Source: Planctomycetota bacterium | GTDB lineage: Bacteria; Planctomycetota; Phycisphaerae; Sedimentisphaerales; Anaerohalosphaeraceae | DNA: 64,000 bases | Assembly: GCA_019456225.1 (NCBI GenBank) | Contig: VRUI01000013.1 | Location: forward strand, 1 to 64,000 | Direction: 5' to 3' | Part shown: positions 21,335 to 29,034 of the stretch, one piece after another | How the letters are laid out: every line of letters begins with the position of its first letter | Position numbering within the stretch: position 1 is the first letter of the stretch | The notes under the pieces: model-generated | What the model was told of the DNA's origin: nothing | Databases searched by the model: none | What the model saw: only the letters and a program-made list of their open reading frames with translations | Made by a program: the position numbers and the translations under genes

Positions 21335-22013
21335 TTATTCCTTCGGCTTTTGTTTTGTGTTGGTTTTGTTGGTCGCCAGGGACACACAGATGATTTCTTT
21401 TCGTTGCGGGCATAGATTCGTTTGTTGGCAAAGGCCGGATGCGACCAAACCATTTTTCGCCCGCCGGCATCGACATCAGGAAGATTCGGATCAGCGAACC
21501 TCATATCGATATGGAAAACCCTGTCTCCGGACACCTGGGACATGGAGGTGTCGTCACCGTCGCAATCGACCCGGGAGCAAGGTAAGCACCCGTCGGTTTT
21601 CTCGCCGCCCGTTCCTCGTGCATTACATCGTGACCCCACGTATTCAGATAGCTGCCGTCAACTGTTACTGTATAAACTGCTTCCGGGTTGGCAGGCGGGT
21701 TAACGGCACCCGGGAAATGAGCCGAGCTTCCAATTTTAAATCCATCTATTAAAGTGGGATGACTTGCTATAGTTCCTGTTGTGAAACTATAATCAATAAT
21801 GTACTGCATGACATTATAGACCGCCCAGTTAATATCGGTGTTAGATGTGTCGGATCTTTTGAAACTCTGAACCGGGCTGCCGGAAACGAACATCGGTCCG
21901 ATCTCAGTGTCGTATGTTACCACCAGGTCAAAAGCTGCCGTTATAATTGCGCTACTGTCATCAAACCGATTTTTGGTCTTGACAACGGGGAGTACTTTAG
22001 CCTGACCAGACAT
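21335..22013 (-). pseudogene. Decayed remnant of a secreted protein, two frameshifted segments
   Basis: Two protein segments in different frames follow each other on the minus strand. The first (22013 to about 21540) includes NTWGHDVMHEERAARKPTGA and YLAPGSIATVTTP, resembling the N-terminal region of M60-like peptidases. The second (about 21540 to 21335) includes AGGRKMVWSHPAFANKRIYA and RNEK, like the end of a PQQ-type beta-propeller protein. One more missing base after RNEK would restore EIICVSLA and carry the frame to the TAA at 21337-21335. There is no start region: the upstream part overlaps the HD-domain gene on the other strand. It is therefore read as a rearranged scrap. The family assignments are tentative. 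Confidence 0.55.
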
Positions 22014-22508
22014 GCTCTGGCAGTCGAAGGCGTGATGCGGTATTTTGCTGAAAAATATGGAGAAGATTCGGAGAAATGGGGAATCATCGGTTTAGTCCAT
22101 GATCTGGACTATCAACAGTTTCCGGATCAGCACTGCACAAAAACGGCTGAGATTCTCTGCTCTCATGGCTGGCCTGAAGACTATATCCGGGCCGTTGTCT
22201 CTCACGGATGGGGAATCTGTTCGGATGTAGAACCACAGGAGAAAATGGAAAAAGTTCTTTATGCAATTGATGAGTTGACAGGGCTGGTGGCAACTACGGC
22301 TCTGGTCAGACCTTCCAGATCAGTGCTGGATGTCGAACCGAAATCAGTCAAGAAGAAATGGAAGGATAAGTCATTTGCCGCAAAGGTTAACAGGGAAGTT
22401 ATCCAAAAGGGAGCAGAGATGCTGTCAATGGAGTTGTCGGACCTGTTCAGGGAAACAATTGCAGGGATGCGGGAAGTAGCAGAGGAAATAGGGTTAAAGG
22501 GAAAGTAG
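21759..22508 (+). CDS. HD-domain (HDIG-type) phosphohydrolase-like protein, start uncertain
   Basis: From about residue 83 onward this is an HD-domain protein with the metal ligands in order: RHALAVE, GLVHDLDYQQF, VVSHGWG and YAIDELTGLV. The remainder (ALVRPSRSVLDVEPKSVKKK and a helical C-terminus) is the usual arrangement of a small family of about 185-190 residues, hydrolases of unknown substrate. The first 80 codons of the open frame have no resemblance to the family and overlap the decayed gene on the opposite strand. The true protein probably starts near 21960-22000, or has lost its first 15-20 residues at a rearrangement. No ATG lies in the right place in frame before 22010, which favours truncation. 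Since the HD residues survive, the protein could still be active if expressed. Confidence 0.7.
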   Translation: MTCYSSCCETIINNVLHDIIDRPVNIGVRCVGSFETLNRAAGNEHRSDLSVVCYHQVKSCRYNCATVIKPIFGLDNGEYFSLTRHALAVEGVMRYFAEKYGEDSEKWGIIGLVHDLDYQQFPDQHCTKTAEILCSHGWPEDYIRAVVSHGWGICSDVEPQEKMEKVLYAIDELTGLVATTALVRPSRSVLDVEPKSVKKKWKDKSFAAKVNREVIQKGAEMLSMELSDLFRETIAGMREVAEEIGLKGK

Positions 22509-22741
22509 TTAGTTAGTATGAAAAAGGGAGTAATAAAAGATTGTTATTATTGAGTAGAAACCCTAAAACTGGGATATTAAGGAGCATACAGACGACAGGC
22601 AGAATTTTTGTTGAGATTACGGAGAATGGCTTTGTTGAAAAAATAAAAGAAATTTCCTTGATAGTCAGGGTGATTTTGGTAAGATAACTACAGTCAAACT
22701 TAAAAGTACAAAATAATCGATAAAGACTTTTTGAAAGGATA

Positions 22742-23896
22742 ATGATGCGATTTTCATTAATAAGTGTAGTTCTGATGGCAGTAATGTTGCTTGGATGTAA
22801 CGAAACGGAAAAAGAAGAAGCCAAGGCAAAAGAAGAAGTTGCCGTTGTCAAAGAAGAAGTTAAGGTAAAAGAAGATGTAAAAATAGAGCAGGCACCCGAT
22901 GCTGTGAAAGTTGAAGATAAAGTAATGGTTACGATAAATGGCAAGGAGATAATGCTTAGTGAAGTTAATAAGCGTATGCAACCTCAACTCGATAGAGCGA
23001 AAATGATGGGACAAAAGCCCAACGAAGGAATGTTGAATAATCTTAGAAAACGCGTAATTGATGGAATAATACAAGAAACTGTGATAACTGAGAAGATAAA
23101 AGATAAAGGTGTTGTTGTTGCAGATGAAGAAGTAACTGCTAAACTTGAAGAGATTGCAAAACAGCAAGGCAGAACCATTGAGCAGCTAATTGCTTCAGCC
23201 GCACCGCGTGGATTCACCGAAGAGAAGATAAGAGAACAGATCAAAATGAATGTTAGTTTTAATAAGCTTATGGAAATTGAAGCTGGCGATGGAGCAATAA
23301 CAGTCACGGACCAGGAAGCTAAGAAGTATTATGACGATAATATCGCTCGATACAGTTCGCCGGATTCTGTAAAAACCAGCCATATTCTTGCCGGTGGCAG
23401 GGGTTTTGATTCTTTTGATGAAGAAATAAAGGCAGATGCCAAACTTAAAATCGAAAAAGTTAAGAAAAAACTCGATGCCGGCGGAAATTTTGAAGAACTT
23501 GCAAAGGAGTTTTCAGATTGTCCTTCAAAGGATAAAGGCGGCGACCTGGGTGTCTATATAACCATCGACGGTAAAATTGTCGGTCAGCGAGGAGGGATGG
23601 ATGGGATATTCAGTAAGGCTGCTCATAAGCTTAAGGTTGGAGAATTAACCGATATCGTTAAAACTCCTTTTGGTTATCATATCATAAAAACTACCGATAG
23701 GAAAAAAGCTGAAGTTAAGAGTTTCCAGGAAGTCAAAGATACTATAGTGCAGCAGCAGGGACAGACAAAAAAGAATAAATTTGCTTCAGGCTATATAAAG
23801 AAACTTAAGGATGATGCAGAAGTCATTTATGCCGACAAGCCCGAAACAACAACAGAAGATAAAACTAAAGTCAAGATTGCACCTGATGGTGAGTAA
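22742..23896 (+). CDS. Parvulin-type peptidyl-prolyl isomerase lipoprotein (SurA/PpiC-like)
   Basis: Periplasmic folding helper. A lipoprotein signal MMRFSLISVVLMAVMLLGC puts the lipid on Cys19. A lysine/glutamate-rich linker (residues 20-55) follows, then a SurA-like N-terminal helical domain (about 60-195). A parvulin domain (about 210-320) has KTSHILAGG, EELAKEFSDCPS, GGDLGVY and TPFGYHIIKTTDR, all family hallmarks. 384 residues is a normal length. The start ATG 22742 has AAGGA just upstream; the second ATG three bases on is also possible. The gene ends 3 bases before a perfect 10-bp palindrome. It is AT-rich compared with its neighbours. Confidence 0.9.
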   Translation: MMRFSLISVVLMAVMLLGCNETEKEEAKAKEEVAVVKEEVKVKEDVKIEQAPDAVKVEDKVMVTINGKEIMLSEVNKRMQPQLDRAKMMGQKPNEGMLNNLRKRVIDGIIQETVITEKIKDKGVVVADEEVTAKLEEIAKQQGRTIEQLIASAAPRGFTEEKIREQIKMNVSFNKLMEIEAGDGAITVTDQEAKKYYDDNIARYSSPDSVKTSHILAGGRGFDSFDEEIKADAKLKIEKVKKKLDAGGNFEELAKEFSDCPSKDKGGDLGVYITIDGKIVGQRGGMDGIFSKAAHKLKVGELTDIVKTPFGYHIIKTTDRKKAEVKSFQEVKDTIVQQQGQTKKNKFASGYIKKLKDDAEVIYADKPETTTEDKTKVKIAPDGE

Positions 23897-23898
23897 TT

Positions 23899-23922
23899 CA
23901 AACTGACCGATTGGTCAGTTTG
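23899..23922. repeat. Perfect palindrome CAAACTGACC-GATT-GGTCAGTTTG
   Basis: Ten-base arms around GATT, 3 bases after the parvulin stop. A second copy with nine-base arms is at 40225-40248 over a likely promoter, and a half-site CAAACTGACCGGT is at 7187-7199. No T-run follows, so it is not a classical terminator. The form fits an operator for a dimeric regulator or a small repeat. Confidence 0.65.
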
Positions 23923-23966
23923 AGATTGATTCCCGACGTAAAGCCGGGATGTTCCATATTTATAAT

Positions 23967-24006
23967 TTATTATTGATTATTTGAGGATTCGGCCTTTGGC
24001 CGAGGC
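23967..24006. repeat. Hairpin repeat with AT-rich leader, copy 2
   Basis: It has the same leader as copy 1 (3387), here followed by CGGCC-TTT-GGCCG. The stem differs from copy 1 by paired changes. No gene begins directly after it. Confidence 0.7.
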
Positions 24007-24046
24007 AAAATAACAAAAAAACAGACACCACGCAAACTGTTTAACC

Positions 24047-24083
24047 CAACTTTCTCACTTTTTGTCAATAAGTGAGAAAGTTG
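24047..24083. repeat. 14-bp perfect hairpin
   Basis: Arms CAACTTTCTCACTT (24047-24060) and AAGTGAGAAAGTTG (24070-24083) around the loop TTTGTCAAT. It lies between the parvulin gene and the tRNA-bounded cassette. Neither side has a T-run long enough to call a terminator. Confidence 0.65.
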
Positions 24084-24179
24084 AGTTAGGTCATTTTGAC
24101 AATCGGCATGTTCAGCACAAATGCATAGCACAAAGCAAATACCGATCTCCATAAGTCCCTGTATACAAAGGACTTGAAC

Positions 24180-24213
24180 TACCCCCAAGGGGACTTGAAG
24201 CACTGTTACTGGG
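24180..24213 (-). repeat. Decayed copy of the tRNA-Glu 3' half (att-like)
   Basis: The 34 bases match the intact tRNA-Glu at 24935-24968 with three differences. They cover the discriminator base, acceptor 3' strand, T arm and variable region, up to the 3' strand of the anticodon stem. The shared runs are TACCCCCAAGGGGACT and CTGTTACTGGG. The mismatches fall in the T arm (TTGAAGCA against TCGAACCC in this orientation), so it could not form a tRNA. It has the same orientation as the intact gene, 755 bases downstream of it, and encloses the two-gene cassette. Confidence 0.85.
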
Positions 24214-24218
24214 CCTGA

Positions 24219-24710
24219 TCAGGAATTGTCATCATTCCGCTTATCTTTTAAGACTTTAAGCTCAATTACAGTTTGCAGGTCACGCGGACGGTTCATAGTT
24301 TTTTTTGACTCTATCAAGGCATCGATATTCAAAATATTAAATACCTTTCCTTCAATCTCGATTTTTTCAGACACCTTGACAGCTTGACGGTAGCCTCCTA
24401 CTCCTTTGACATATCCCAGGCAATCTAACTGGCCAAGTTCTGTGTCAAGATACAAGTTTTTTAAGCTTTTGCAATTGTCCTCGGTAAGTTCCAGTTTGAC
24501 TTTTTTGGATGTCATTCGGTGAACAGGGTTTAGGTCGGCAAGAGCCTTTTGCAAACGCATCAAATTTGTCGGTGAAAAATCACAACAGATATCAATATCC
24601 TGAGTTACATTAGTACAGCCATGTGCAGCCGAAGCAAATCCTCCGATAATTACAAAATCAACTTCGGAATCAGCAAGACAAGTCAATAATTCTAGAAATC
24701 TTCCGATCAT
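24219..24710 (-). CDS. Nucleotidyltransferase of the AbiEii/MNT type
   Basis: 163 residues with a minimal nucleotidyltransferase fold: VDFVIIGGFASAAHG (residues about 17-31) gives the GG motif, and TQDIDICCDF (about 36-45) gives the metal-binding DxD. It lacks the long C-terminal domain of classical AbiEii toxins, matching small stand-alone family members often paired with a short upstream gene. Such proteins are commonly toxins or antitoxins that transfer nucleotides to tRNA or protein, or are unassigned. Its ATG overlaps the stop of the 73-residue gene by 4 bases (ATGA), so translation is coupled. Being enclosed by tRNA-Glu 3'-half repeats, it behaves as cargo of a small islet. A toxin-antitoxin role is an inference. 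Confidence 0.78.
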   Translation of the reverse strand: MIGRFLELLTCLADSEVDFVIIGGFASAAHGCTNVTQDIDICCDFSPTNLMRLQKALADLNPVHRMTSKKVKLELTEDNCKSLKNLYLDTELGQLDCLGYVKGVGGYRQAVKVSEKIEIEGKVFNILNIDALIESKKTMNRPRDLQTVIELKVLKDKRNDDNS

Positions 24711-24928
24711 AATTTCCTGGCACCTTTAAGCATATTAAGTGCGTTTAATGCAGATTGATGCCTTCTGAGACGTTCAGCGGGGGTTCTATCGGCATTGTCC
24801 ATGAGCATTTGTATATCAACTCCATAGTCCCGGGCTTCTTTAAGGTATGGGTAATGTTCAACAAGCTCATCAAAACGACTCTGCTCGTCAAATGAAGTGT
24901 TTTCTTGATCTTTGTTTGTATTGGTCAT
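24707..24928 (-). CDS. Small protein, partner of the nucleotidyltransferase
   Basis: 73 residues, acidic and helical, with a C-terminal block RTPAERLRRHQSALNALNML. That TPxERLRRHQ pattern is often seen in short genes placed directly upstream of small nucleotidyltransferases, so it is probably their partner, perhaps an antitoxin or substrate adaptor. The frame is open back to 25009, but that part merely reads through tRNA-Glu; ATG 24928 (MTNTNKDQENTSF) is the true start, only 6 bases from the mature tRNA 3' end. Transcription must therefore come through the tRNA. It overlaps the next gene by 4 bases. Function not known. Confidence 0.72.
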   Translation of the reverse strand: MTNTNKDQENTSFDEQSRFDELVEHYPYLKEARDYGVDIQMLMDNADRTPAERLRRHQSALNALNMLKGARKL

Positions 24929-24934
24929 AATGAA

Positions 24935-25007
24935 TACCCCCAAGGGGACTCGAACCCCTGTTACTGGGATGAGAACCCAGCGTCCTAGGCCGCTAGACGA
25001 TGGGGGC
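24935..25007 (-). tRNA. tRNA-Glu (CTC)
   Basis: 73 nt cloverleaf on the minus strand. The acceptor is GCCCCCA against TGGGGGT (G1-U72 wobble), the anticodon stem is CTGGG/CCCAG with loop TTCTCAT (anticodon CTC), and the T arm is AGGGG-TTCGAGT-CCCCT. CCA is not encoded. It is the intact copy of the sequence partly repeated at 24180. Confidence 0.95.
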
Positions 25008-25010
25008 ATC

Positions 25011-25456
25011 TAGTCGATAGTCGTTAGTCTATAGTCTATAGTTTTTTTGTCAAGCTCATTGTCATTTTGCTTATCTGTTCGACTTCGTCAATAAACTTGC
25101 CGGCAATATTATCACTGGTATAGCCAATTCTAGCTGATATTGTAAGTTGCGTTATCAGTTCCGAACAACTACCTAATTGATATGCGCAAAAACTGCTTAT
25201 ATTCATTTCTGTGGCCTCTGCTAAATCCTTCGGCTATGTTCGAAGGTATCGAAACACTGCACCGCCGAATTTGGCTTGTAAGGCCATAAGTTTCCTCTTT
25301 GGGAAACGATTTTGTTAAGATATAGATTTTTTCGACAAGAGCAATACTTCTCTTCCAGATTTCCAAGTCTTGAAAAGTCCTAATCTTGCCGTATCTTGCT
25401 GTTTCTGTCATGGCTGCACCATAATCTATCGACTATCGACAAACGACTATCGACTA
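25011..25456 (-). mobile_element. IVS-like element: four-helix-bundle gene between 31-bp inverted repeats
   Basis: Left arm 25011-25041 and right arm 25426-25456 are inverted repeats pairing at 28 of 31 positions; both contain TAGTCGATAGTCGTT in the same reading sense. They enclose a gene of the 23S rRNA intervening-sequence (four-helix bundle) family, and the arm overlaps its stop codon. The unit fills the tRNA-Met/tRNA-Glu spacer, leaving 2 and 3 bases. Classical IVS elements sit in 23S rRNA helices and are cut out of the RNA by RNase III at such a stem. Confidence 0.75.
25036..25411 (-). pseudogene. Four-helix bundle (IVS-encoded, S23-type) protein, frameshifted
   Basis: The first 80 codons (to a stop at 25169) encode the standard start of the family: FQDLEIWKRSIALVEKIYIL, then SFPKEETYGLTSQIRRCSVS, then IPSNIAEGFSRGHRNEYKQF. 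Directly after LRIS, one extra A shifts the frame. Without it the sequence continues GSCSELITQLTISARIGYTS and on to MTMSLTKKL with stop at 25036, a complete protein of about 124 residues. The break is either a real inactivating change or a sequencing error. Proteins of this family form pentameric four-helix bundles and are encoded inside rRNA intervening sequences, but their role is unknown. The ATG 25411 start fits. Confidence 0.85.
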
Positions 25457-25458
25457 AA

Positions 25459-25532
25459 TAGCGACGGGTGGATTCGAACCACCGACCTCAGGCTTATGAA
25501 TCCCACGCTCTAACCAGCTGAGCTACGTCGCC
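25459..25532 (-). tRNA. tRNA-Met (CAT)
   Basis: 74 nt on the minus strand. The acceptor is GGCGACG/CGTCGCT, the D arm is GCTC-AGCTGGTTA-GAGC, the anticodon loop is TTCATAA (CAT), and the T arm is GGTGG-TTCGAAT-CCACC. CCA is not encoded. The anticodon stem TGGGA/GCCTG has an A-G mismatch and two wobble pairs, so it is weak. Elongator methionine is most likely; a lysidine-modified isoleucine tRNA cannot be excluded from sequence alone. It would be transcribed first, ahead of the IVS-like element and tRNA-Glu. Confidence 0.9.
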
Positions 25533-25700
25533 GAAATCTTAACAAGCAAAATATTCTACAGACAAAACCAGCTATTGCAAGGGAAAATATACCATTTTTT
25601 TGGGGAAAATCGCATAAAAGTCTGCATTTGTGTCACCTTCTTACGATTTTTGTTCCTTTATTGTGGTATGATAATTATATTCCATACGAAAGGTTTTTTA

Positions 25701-28700
25701 ATGTCTATCGATAAAAATGAAATTTCACTGCTAAAAGCCTGTTTACAGGGCGATACCGGCGCTTTTGAGCGGATCGTCTCTAAATACCAGGGTTTTATTT
25801 GCGCAGTTACCTACAGCGCTACCGGTGACGCTGAAAAGAGCGAAGAGCTTGCCCATGAGACTTTTATCAGCGCCTGGAGGAGCCTGGCCCAACTGAAAGA
25901 TCTTGCCAAATTTCGCGGGTGGATCGGTACTATCGCCCGCAATGTCGTGCGGAATTCGTTCAGGGAAAAAAAACGGGATATTATCAGCGGGGCGGCGTCT
26001 ATTGATGCTGTTGATGAGTCGGCCGTTGCTGCCGACGAAAGCGATGAGGAGGCTTTGGCCGGTGAGCGGCAGGCTGTTGTTGAGATGGCTTTAAAGAGGA
26101 TACCGGCGAAGTATCGGGAAGTTATCGTGCTTTTCTACCGGCAGGAGCAATCTATTAAGGAAGTTGCGGCCCAGCTTGAGCTTTCCGAGGCTACGGTTAA
26201 GCAGCGGCTGTCTCGCGGAAGAAAAATGTTGAAGGAACAAGCCGCCGAAATGATCGAGACGACTATCAGCAGAACAGGTCCGTCCAAGGCGTTTACCGCT
26301 TGTGTTATGGGGTCGGTTACCGCGCTTGCGCTGAAAGGTGCCGCGACGGCCGGGGCAGCGGTAGTTGCCGGGGGTTCGTCGACCGGCGCTGCCAGCGGTT
26401 TGAGTGCCTTGTTCAGTACGGCTGCCGCTAAGATAGTTACTGCTGCCGCGGTTGCGGTGATCGCTGTCGGCGGGACGGTTGTTTATAACAATATGAAGTC
26501 GCCGCCCGCGCAGAAAGATAAACCTGTGCAGGTTGCAGATGCATCGCAGAATAACGGAGTTGATGAAATCGGTGATGGCACGCTGGTTGAAAAAAATGGT
26601 GATGAAAACATTGCTTCTTTGCCGCCGTCGGTGAGTATTGTCAATCCAGTTGAAACAGGGCCGATTTCGGCTGCCGGCGATACTGAATCAAAACCGGAAG
26701 TCGAAAATCCACCGCAATACATCGATCCTAATACTCTTACGGATATCCATTATATAGCAACCGGTTTCTTGGCGGATGGTTCTATAGATCATTCGGAAGA
26801 ATCATGGATCAAAAAACCGAATTGCTGGCGAAGCGATAAAAACAACAAAACGATCATAAACAACGGCAAGGTTAAATTAGAGCTGGACCATAAGAAAATG
26901 ACCGCCGAGCTTAGTGAGTCGAGCAATACCAAAGCACTTATACCAGAGTATCCCCAATCAAAAATGGTTTTCACTTTGATACAGATTGGCAGGAATCTTA
27001 TCACAGGCAGAGATGTATGGTATGGGCATGATTTTCTAAAAGAAGCCCAAGGGTATAAACTTGATCCGCCCTCACCCGGAGAAAAGACATCCGACGGGCT
27101 GATGAAATACTCCGTTAAGATAACGGAGGGAGACGGGCATGGGGTAATGAATGTGTATGTTGACATCAAAACGGGGCTGCCGCAGAGAATGCTTATAGAG
27201 GTGGAAGAGGAAGGGGGCAGAGATCAGGAGTATTTATTTGATTATTCAGAGATAGATCCGGGTATGTTTTCGCTTAAGACACCCGACGGATATAAAGAAT
27301 ATGCAATGCGTTTGTCGCCGAAATTTCAGGGATTGATATTCGATAAGGACCTTAAACCTGCTGCCAATGCAGAGATATATCTGATGGGCAGCAATGATCG
27401 CGGTGTTAAGGGGACAAGCAATTCAGAGGGTGAATTTAATTTCTATATTCCCGTGGGCACCTGGGGTGATGACGAGGCTATGGAATATCCTGTTTTTGTC
27501 CGTGCGATATGTAAGGACTATCCGGGGCAGGTTGCGTGGACGGTGATTCAGGCACCGGATAGTGAGTATAAACTTAAGCCTGTCATACCTTCTCCGGGTG
27601 AGATTCGCAGGGAGTCTAAAGGTAAAGGGAGATCGTCTAAGTGCCTTGCTATACATAATGTTTCCCTGGTGCTTGAACCGGGGGCGTCTATAAGCGGTCA
27701 AGTGCTTGATAAGGTCACCGGTGAACCTGTAGCAAACGTTATGGTTGAGCTTAATGCGAGCATAAAGGGTAAGACATGGGATCTATTTGACAGGATCGCC
27801 GGTCCCGGCAGAAGAGGTGACTTCGAGGTCAAGACGGATGAGAACGGTTTTTATGCTTTTACGTGTTTGCCGACTTTTACCTGGCCGAAAGATACGATAG
27901 ACCAAGCCATGAAAACGTACCGTTCGGGGGAGCAATTACGACAGCGTACGGACTATAGTCTAAAGGTTGAGTGTGATGGGTATCTTGTCAATCATACTGG
28001 GTCTACGATATTGACGCCGAAAGATTCTCTTGGGGACAGGCAGATTGATTTTTCGCTCATTCCTGCAAATGTAACAATTCGCGGGCGTGTTACGGATGAC
28101 GATAGAAAGCCGATTGCAGGCTACCAGGTTGAATATTGTATTGATCTGAACGGAACCGGTACAAACTGCGGGGGCAAGTACATCAGGACAAACGAAAAGG
28201 GTGAGTATGAGATTACCGGTTGTGCATATCATAAAAGCCTGTCGGTAAGGGTTGAAAGCGGCAGCAAACCTCGCAAGTGGCATGAAGAGGATGCGACTAA
28301 AGATAAGGAGTTTGTCTATTACGGTTATAAGTATGTGCCTGTTGAAATTGAAGAGGGCAAGCTGGAATATGAAGTTGATATTGTTCTGGACAAGCCCGAA
28401 GCGGTGATCGTATTTGATATAAAAGATACGGCAGGCAAGCCGATAGAGGGTATGGGTGTGCAGGTGATATGGCACGACAGCATAATAGGTTATGAGTGGG
28501 CGGAATTACTTAACGGGGTGTCGGGTAAGGATGGAAAGTGTGTTATCGCAGGTTTGCCGAATATGAAAGGTGGAGACCTGCGTTTTAATGTTGGTCCATC
28601 CGTTGTTAAGAAAACGGCTGCGGATAGGAAAGTTCCTGAAGGTGTAGAATCTCCGGCAGGGAATAAAAAAGTTCTGAATGAAAAATTGAATAAGTACACT

Positions 28701-28844
28701 TCTTTTTACTGGCTGCTGGAAGATCTGCCGGACGGTAAAGACGGGTATGTTATCGAGGTGACGGTGCCCAAAAAAGGTGAAAGGTTTGATCGCAAGAAAA
28801 GGATTAAGATTTTCGACTCAAAAGGCAAAAAGATTAATAGGTAA
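25701..28844 (+). CDS. Membrane-tethered ECF sigma factor with extracytoplasmic carboxypeptidase-regulatory-like domains
   Basis: 1047 residues, a single-chain sigma-and-sensor protein. Residues 1-185 are an ECF sigma: region 2 with EKSEELAHETFISAWRSL and the FRGWIGTIARNVVRN helix, region 4 with PAKYREVIVLFYRQEQSIKE and the helix-turn-helix VAAQLELSEATVKQRL. An alanine/glycine-rich stretch ends in a transmembrane helix (about 242-263, TAAAVAVIAVGGTVVY). The remaining 780 residues would be outside: a LolA/MucB-like beta domain (about 330-540), then several carboxypeptidase-regulatory-like beta-sandwiches (ISGQVLDKVTGEPVANVMV, IRGRVTDDDRKPIAGY). The frame is open from 25575, but ATG 25701 with AAAGG upstream is the start. 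Planctomycetes are known for ECF factors with such C-terminal extensions. The sigma part is probably released or masked in response to the outside domains (inference). Confidence 0.88.
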   Translation: MSIDKNEISLLKACLQGDTGAFERIVSKYQGFICAVTYSATGDAEKSEELAHETFISAWRSLAQLKDLAKFRGWIGTIARNVVRNSFREKKRDIISGAASIDAVDESAVAADESDEEALAGERQAVVEMALKRIPAKYREVIVLFYRQEQSIKEVAAQLELSEATVKQRLSRGRKMLKEQAAEMIETTISRTGPSKAFTACVMGSVTALALKGAATAGAAVVAGGSSTGAASGLSALFSTAAAKIVTAAAVAVIAVGGTVVYNNMKSPPAQKDKPVQVADASQNNGVDEIGDGTLVEKNGDENIASLPPSVSIVNPVETGPISAAGDTESKPEVENPPQYIDPNTLTDIHYIATGFLADGSIDHSEESWIKKPNCWRSDKNNKTIINNGKVKLELDHKKMTAELSESSNTKALIPEYPQSKMVFTLIQIGRNLITGRDVWYGHDFLKEAQGYKLDPPSPGEKTSDGLMKYSVKITEGDGHGVMNVYVDIKTGLPQRMLIEVEEEGGRDQEYLFDYSEIDPGMFSLKTPDGYKEYAMRLSPKFQGLIFDKDLKPAANAEIYLMGSNDRGVKGTSNSEGEFNFYIPVGTWGDDEAMEYPVFVRAICKDYPGQVAWTVIQAPDSEYKLKPVIPSPGEIRRESKGKGRSSKCLAIHNVSLVLEPGASISGQVLDKVTGEPVANVMVELNASIKGKTWDLFDRIAGPGRRGDFEVKTDENGFYAFTCLPTFTWPKDTIDQAMKTYRSGEQLRQRTDYSLKVECDGYLVNHTGSTILTPKDSLGDRQIDFSLIPANVTIRGRVTDDDRKPIAGYQVEYCIDLNGTGTNCGGKYIRTNEKGEYEITGCAYHKSLSVRVESGSKPRKWHEEDATKDKEFVYYGYKYVPVEIEEGKLEYEVDIVLDKPEAVIVFDIKDTAGKPIEGMGVQVIWHDSIIGYEWAELLNGVSGKDGKCVIAGLPNMKGGDLRFNVGPSVVKKTAADRKVPEGVESPAGNKKVLNEKLNKYTSFYWLLEDLPDGKDGYVIEVTVPKKGERFDRKKRIKIFDSKGKKINR

Positions 28845-29034
28845 GGCGTAATGTTGGCAGGATGCTGACCTCGGGTGGCATCGGTCACTCCGTGCCCGAT
28901 GGCTAAGCTCACAATGTCAATTTATCGCGACAATGACAGGCGGTAGGATGGGCTGTGCCCATGCTGTTGCTGCCATCCAGCTGCAGGTGGCATGTTTAAT
29001 AGAATTTTGTTTATTACTTAAAATGGAGATTATT

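Follow-up and report, generated by a model that had tools for sequence, protein, structure and literature searches.

An IVS-like element with an S23 gene between inverted heptamer arrays in a tRNA-Met/tRNA-Glu spacer of a Planctomycetota genome, and its counterparts across the S23 family

The closest described relatives of the element reported here are the intervening sequences (IVSs) of rRNA. In Coxiella burnetii, the 23S rRNA IVS is 428-444 nt long and contains an S23p ORF; its complementary ends pair into a stem, the structure that RNase III cuts in rRNA IVSs (PMC4990558). From CPR bacteria, rRNA insertions carrying IVP ORFs have also been described (PMC11270868). The Avd protein of diversity-generating retroelements has a homologous four-helix-bundle fold (PMC10053308). 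The closest solved homologue of the family profile, PF05635 (23S_rRNA_IVP), is PDB 2GSC (E = 6e-39), and 2RLD is also matched. The title of the 2GSC paper, as quoted in PMC10053308, names an assembly of five four-helix bundles. Separately, direct repeats of the heptanucleotide TAACTGA have been described in Beggiatoaceae, cyanobacteria, and Bacteroidetes, with their origin left open (PMC4679880).

The window is a 64,000-nt stretch of a genome from the Planctomycetota (contig VRUI01000013.1), and all positions below refer to it. Between a tRNA-Met and a tRNA-Glu gene, both on the minus strand, lies an element of about 450 nt (Table 1). The first-pass annotation described this spacer as an IVS-like unit, an S23-type gene within complementary arms occupying a transcribed tRNA-tRNA spacer, and that description holds. 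Between 25011-25041 and 25426-25456, 28 of 31 positions are complementary, as had been claimed, and extending the arms to 25008-25044 and 25423-25459 gives 32 of 37. The local-alignment score of the arms is 24, compared with a maximum of 16 over 4000 random window positions of the same geometry (0/4000 equal). The arms abut both tRNA genes, with 2 bp left to tRNA-Glu and 2 bp to tRNA-Met in the ARAGORN predictions. Each arm is a tandem array of the 7-bp word GATAGTC, inverted relative to the other and about five units long (TAGTCGA and variants). The 5' arm has five 7-bp slots with an AG core in four of them, and the 3' arm has five AG cores. When the window transcript was folded through both tRNAs, the predicted structure paired the arms and formed both tRNA acceptor stems (z = -6.2), so that the ORF would be looped out between the tRNAs, as the annotation had proposed.

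The enclosed gene does belong to the 23S rRNA IVS family. Its N-terminal part matches PF05635 with an E-value of 5.6e-27 and 94.5 bits, compared with a gathering cut-off of 33.8. The gene is broken, since a one-base insertion splits the domain over two frames. An intact copy is present in the same tRNA spacer of a genome from another genus (G005), and its single-sequence structure model is all-helical at low confidence (pLDDT 66.9). The only Pfam matches of the window gene are 23S_rRNA_IVP and a sub-threshold hit to bAvd (PF22296; 22.9 bits, cut-off 40); no transposase, nuclease, or recombinase domain was found among them. Unlike Avd, the window protein thus falls under the bAvd cut-off, and inspection by eye of the ORFs from 22000 to 29000 found no reverse transcriptase.

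Table 1. Features of the element and its host genes in the window
Feature	Position	Strand	Remarks
tRNA-Met (CAT), upstream host gene	25459..25532	-	ARAGORN; Rfam RF00005, 63.9 bits
5' arm, inverted heptad array	25423..25456	-	gene-strand TAGTCGA TAGTCGT TTGTCGA TAGTCGA TAG
PF05635 (23S_rRNA_IVP, S23 four-helix bundle) frame, N-terminal part, 80 aa	25169..25411	-	premature stop
One-base insertion (frameshift), approximate	25178	-	alignment against the intact G005 copy
PF05635 C-terminal part, other frame	25043..25200	-	profile positions 60-104, E = 1.4e-6, separate match
3' arm, complementary heptad array	25011..25041	-	inward TAGTCGA TAGTCGT TAGTCTA TAGTCTA TAG
tRNA-Glu (CTC), downstream host gene	24934..25008	-	ARAGORN, Rfam

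The window element shares with the Coxiella burnetii IVS an S23/PF05635 ORF inside stem-forming ends, a similar size, and a decaying ORF (PMC4990558). Unlike a 23S IVS, it lies between tRNA genes, and other copies lie mostly between protein genes. In these elements, each arm repeats a word of 7-8 bp about five times in tandem, and the word varies by copy, a comparison made with the published description of IVSs. No rRNA match was found anywhere in the window. The window element is IVS-like by its protein family and its complementary ends; by location, it is not a 23S IVS.

Several other features of the window were noted. A 34-nt, att-like copy (91%) of the 3' end of tRNA-Glu lies about 720 bp downstream at 24180-24213 on the minus strand. 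It bounds a segment with two ORFs, one of the DUF6036-type nucleotidyltransferase kind (24219-24710, scoring under the Pfam cut-off) and a small partner that has no Pfam match, and from this arrangement the segment is possibly a tiny integrated island. A group II intron RNA (RF02005) is present at 1798-2033 on the minus strand, within 168-2033. In the same region, inspection by eye found a 195-aa reverse-transcriptase-like ORF that appears truncated (999-1586), adjoined by an ORF resembling an IS21-type ATPase (168-941).

The pairing of tRNA-Met and tRNA-Glu genes is kept throughout the taxonomic family. The comparison of this spacer among relatives, which the annotation had proposed as a check, separates many genomes with a spacer of 5-29 bp from a few that hold the element. 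The S23 gene is present at this site only in the window genome (G000) and in G005, and the two spacers are 86% identical over aligned columns. A relative keeping the gene here without the inverted repeat had been named as evidence against the reading; G005, the sole relative found with the gene at this site, also has the arms. The G002 spacer has only a 5' arm, TTTAGTCGATAGTCGTT, on the tRNA-Met side, and it looks like a deleted copy. The spacers of G014, G008, and G022 are 113-166 bp long and have inverted arrays of other words and no gene.

The same anatomy is found across the S23 family. The sample drew on about 50 related genomes, which gave 93 PF05635 copies, and on a GTDB-wide scan, which gave another 80; the scan took in Bacteroidota, Cyanobacteria, Clostridia, Acidobacteria, several classes of proteobacteria, Patescibacteria, and Methanophagales. 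Flavobacterium, Pseudaminobacter, and Calothrix are among the named hosts of the sample. Inverted arms above the working threshold were present at 56/91 loci of the relatives compared with 4/173 control windows, and at 60/79 loci of the wide set, from other phyla, compared with 2/144 controls. Overall, inverted 7-8-bp arrays enclose the gene at 117 of 171 PF05635 loci and only 12 of 238 other ORFs at the same loci (Fisher p = 3e-45). Copies outside rRNA are thus usually flanked by inverted repeats, which was a further check that the annotation had proposed. Strong arms at this threshold are missing at 54/171 loci, including the tRNA-Pro-linked L002, L064, L099, and L119. Among the 117 armed loci, the array period is 7 in 90 and 8 in 23. 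The words vary by copy and include GATAGTC, AGTTTTG, CAGTTAT, GGGTCCA, and TAGGGAA. Read inward, they are AG-rich and C-poor at 102 loci compared with 9. A strand-specific polarity of the words was considered and dropped; because the arms are inverted, the polarity is merely inward or outward. Over all loci, an arm most often has five uninterrupted AG cores (4:28, 5:61, 6:13), and the same peak is seen independently in the relatives (4:13, 5:32, 6:6) and in the other phyla (15, 29, 7). No other dinucleotide shows a peak at five per arm. At 39/117 loci, the 5' arm has stops in every reading frame, compared with 19.7 in shuffles, a modest excess. The proteins of the S23 family are basic, with a median pI of 9.06.

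A PF05635 subfamily is located behind tRNA-Pro (tRNA-Val in L062) in several genera (L002, L061, L062, L064, L099, and L119), and its arms are mostly weak or absent. At L004 (C83 in the window genome), several copies of another, longer repeat, TTCGATATTCCTTGTTGGATATTGGCTATTC, surround the PF05635 gene, which adjoins an RNase III-like ORF.

The annotation had further suggested that the family can move into other structured RNAs, or that processed transcripts in general are targeted. Structured RNAs as a special target were not borne out, as most S23 copies lie between protein-coding genes of operons and rRNA motifs were found at none of the 173 sampled S23 loci. Because of this absence, the tRNA spacer is best seen as one transcribed spacer among many. 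One insertion inside a 16S rRNA gene (L097) was suspected and was not confirmed. Upstream, a median of 3 nt separates the outer edge of the arms from the stop codon, and downstream, a median of 11.5 nt separates it from the start codon. At 80/84 loci with tandem neighbours, the S23 gene is co-oriented with them. Other ORFs between tandem neighbours are co-oriented in 22/27 cases, and by this baseline the S23 figure is therefore only moderately above normal. The orientation of the S23 gene is accordingly that of an operon gene, unlike that of an insertion with no orientation preference.

Filled and near-empty states of one site are clearest at the argH-thiL junction. The element that G027 has there is about 450 bp long, whereas the congeneric G016, G024, G030, and G032 have 16-92 bp. 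Several genus g13 genomes, and others, also have this junction filled, and it is short in G021 and G061. The short spacers vary by species, and no target-site duplication is readable. The filled copies have differing words (AAGAACAC, AAGTATAC, AGGAATAT, and CAGGAATA), and the best partner of each 5' arm is the 3' arm of the same copy (20.1 within copies compared with 11.4 across; permutation p = 5e-5, which survives a ten-fold correction for the junction having been picked after the ten-site result was seen). Over all ten orthologous sites, matched turnover of the arms was not significant (p = 0.096), mainly because the words are unchanged at the other sites, and it is clear only at argH-thiL. 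Selection acting on the stem and gene conversion from one arm to the other would each fit the matched arms there. Many copies occupy one genomic site across genera, a persistence that fits slow rather than active movement. The L106 site of G024 was rejected as a clean case of an empty site because sister spacers differ and G027 carries another insert. At L168 (G027) and L272 (G029), the junctions are occupied by other small genes, a nucleotidyltransferase-like insert and a small lipoprotein-like ORF, where relatives have an S23 element, and their placement suggests that these junctions may be recurrent insertion points.

The words of the arms are also found as solitary arrays. Word counts in genomes combine searches and retrieved stretches. 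The window word, GACTATCGACTA, has 13 exact copies in the window genome, two of which are the arms of the element, 14 in G002, and 13 in G003, compared with 0-1 in 36 other genomes of the family that were searched. The flanks of these arrays in the three genomes are mostly non-homologous, with two homologous locus pairs, so that arrays of one word have settled at different places. In G024, the L106 word CAGTTAT is present in at least 12 single-direction arrays, and this word read outward is TAACTGA. Window-type 7-bp tandem units dispersed in intergenic regions also qualify as arrays of the TAACTGA type. Both are intergenic tandem 7-bp arrays that often lie near gene ends, and they differ in that the available portion of PMC4679880 describes TAACTGA arrays as direct repeats, with no link to S23 or to paired inverted arms.

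The presence of these arrays is associated with that of the gene. Over 148 genomes of the order, the median number of heptad-pattern matches is 1.5 in genomes with no PF05635 (n = 18) and 38 in those with it (p = 8e-7), and in near-complete genomes it is 0 (n = 7) and 47.5 (n = 66; p = 2e-5), an association that is correlative, ignores phylogeny, and is partly fed by the elements' own arms. Within-genus contrasts point in the same direction. The near absence of arrays where the gene is missing links S23 to heptamer repeats. The first-pass annotation had regarded a word dispersed throughout the genome as evidence against its reading. The word is indeed dispersed, but the element itself stands, because the gene with its inverted arms is general and arrays almost vanish in gene-free genomes. 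G003 is an exception, with 92 AGT-heptad matches and no PF05635 gene even by a loose profile in a genome that is 80% complete. Many GATAGTC arrays were noted there with no detectable PF05635 gene (L283-L292). The gene may have been lost or may fall in an assembly gap, or the arrays may have another source. That the word follows the protein was considered and rejected, as the signal of an apparently significant first Mantel test came from same-site copies. When these were removed, word similarity did not track protein similarity (r = 0.05, p = 0.12), and specific recognition of a private word is therefore not claimed.

Taken together, the window spacer is probably a decayed copy of a widespread, small, co-transcribed IVS-like element. 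Such an element consists of an S23 gene bounded on each side by an array of about five 7-8-bp words, the two arrays being inverted and having an AG core in common when read inward; it lies in sense orientation and nearly fills its spacer. It would be transcribed with the host operon, after which base pairing between the arms of the RNA would place the gene in a loop and leave the ends of the flanking tRNAs or cistrons intact. By analogy with 23S IVSs, RNase III may cut the stem, and the element could in this way be excised from the RNA. Should the S23 protein form a pentamer, as its solved homologue does, it would bind a single five-unit array with one subunit per word. The protein may also promote the spread or maintenance of arrays. 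Either directly or through its past presence, the gene would be required for a genome to have arrays. Transcription with pairing of the arms is the most likely of these steps, and promotion of array spread or maintenance by the protein is the least certain. The TRAP protein is a ring that binds RNA with NAG repeats, eleven units at a spacing of about 5 nt. It offers a functional analogy only, in that the AG cores are regular here as well and their number would match the subunits of a ring. Unlike TRAP, S23 has an unrelated fold, and its arrays have a spacing of 7-8 rather than about 5 nt and five rather than eleven units.

The arms could instead be terminal inverted repeats of a minimal transposon, acted on at the DNA level by the S23 protein or a host recombinase, with solitary arrays as non-autonomous or decayed copies, like the REP sequences of RAYT elements. 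In REP/RAYT systems and MITEs, a gene is flanked by short inverted repeats and gene-less relatives are dispersed in the same genome. Several observations would be expected of such a transposon: orthologous junctions that are near-empty, tRNA spacers with inverted arrays but no gene in G014, G008, and G022, arrays of one word that G000, G002, and G003 hold mostly at sites that are not orthologous, and the association of gene and arrays across genomes. Nevertheless, we judge it rather unlikely: the S23 gene has no transposase or nuclease domain, the sense orientation is strong, copies persist at orthologous sites across genera, and no target-site duplication was resolved. S23 elements differ from REP/RAYT and MITEs in having no transposase, arms that are tandem arrays, and a sense orientation in operons. 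Much less room is left for heptamer microsatellites that expand by slippage in spacers, with S23 genes there by chance. The word is dispersed in the window genome away from the gene, and heptamers are a common class of bacterial repeat (PMC4679880). Against this stand the matching inverted arms, common at S23 loci and rare around other ORFs, the near absence of arrays from gene-free genomes, an AG-core count that peaks at five rather than spreading smoothly, and the inward AG polarity, so that a simple-sequence by-product is highly improbable.

Much of the data agrees with a regulatory reading. Here, S23 would be a domesticated RNA-binding ring with autoregulatory arms, the arrays near gene ends would be its regulon, and mobility would be incidental. 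Five units per arm beside a homologue described as five four-helix bundles, the basic proteins, and the stable operon positions agree with such control, and a post-transcriptional role of TAACTGA arrays has been proposed (PMC4679880). Solitary GATAGTC arrays tend to follow a stop codon of the same orientation (14 vs 4, p = 0.03), a weak bias, but the second set of solitary arrays shows no orientation bias (8 vs 5). Moreover, the host genes beside the elements are mutually unrelated, and a regulon leaves unexplained why two inverted arms are kept. For these reasons, we regard post-transcriptional control as quite unlikely to be the main explanation.

The reading of the spacer as a decayed, co-transcribed IVS-like element has a wider form, which we offer tentatively and would not yet expect to hold in full. 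S23 proteins may be pentameric nucleic-acid-binding rings that read five AG-core words, and the elements may be self-maintaining and sense-oriented in operons, with rRNA IVSs as one branch and the activity of the protein seeding the dispersed heptamer arrays. A literature search, whose coverage was mostly of papers open to non-subscribers and included no bioRxiv preprints, found no report of the boxed S23/array architecture. The ORF of 23S rRNA IVSs would be the most conspicuous case of a class of small operon elements that spans phyla and shares one anatomy. The S23 family would be tied to the intergenic heptamer repeats described in PMC4679880. The old puzzle of scattered 7-letter repeats would become testable, and annotators would gain a signature for boxes that interrupt operons.
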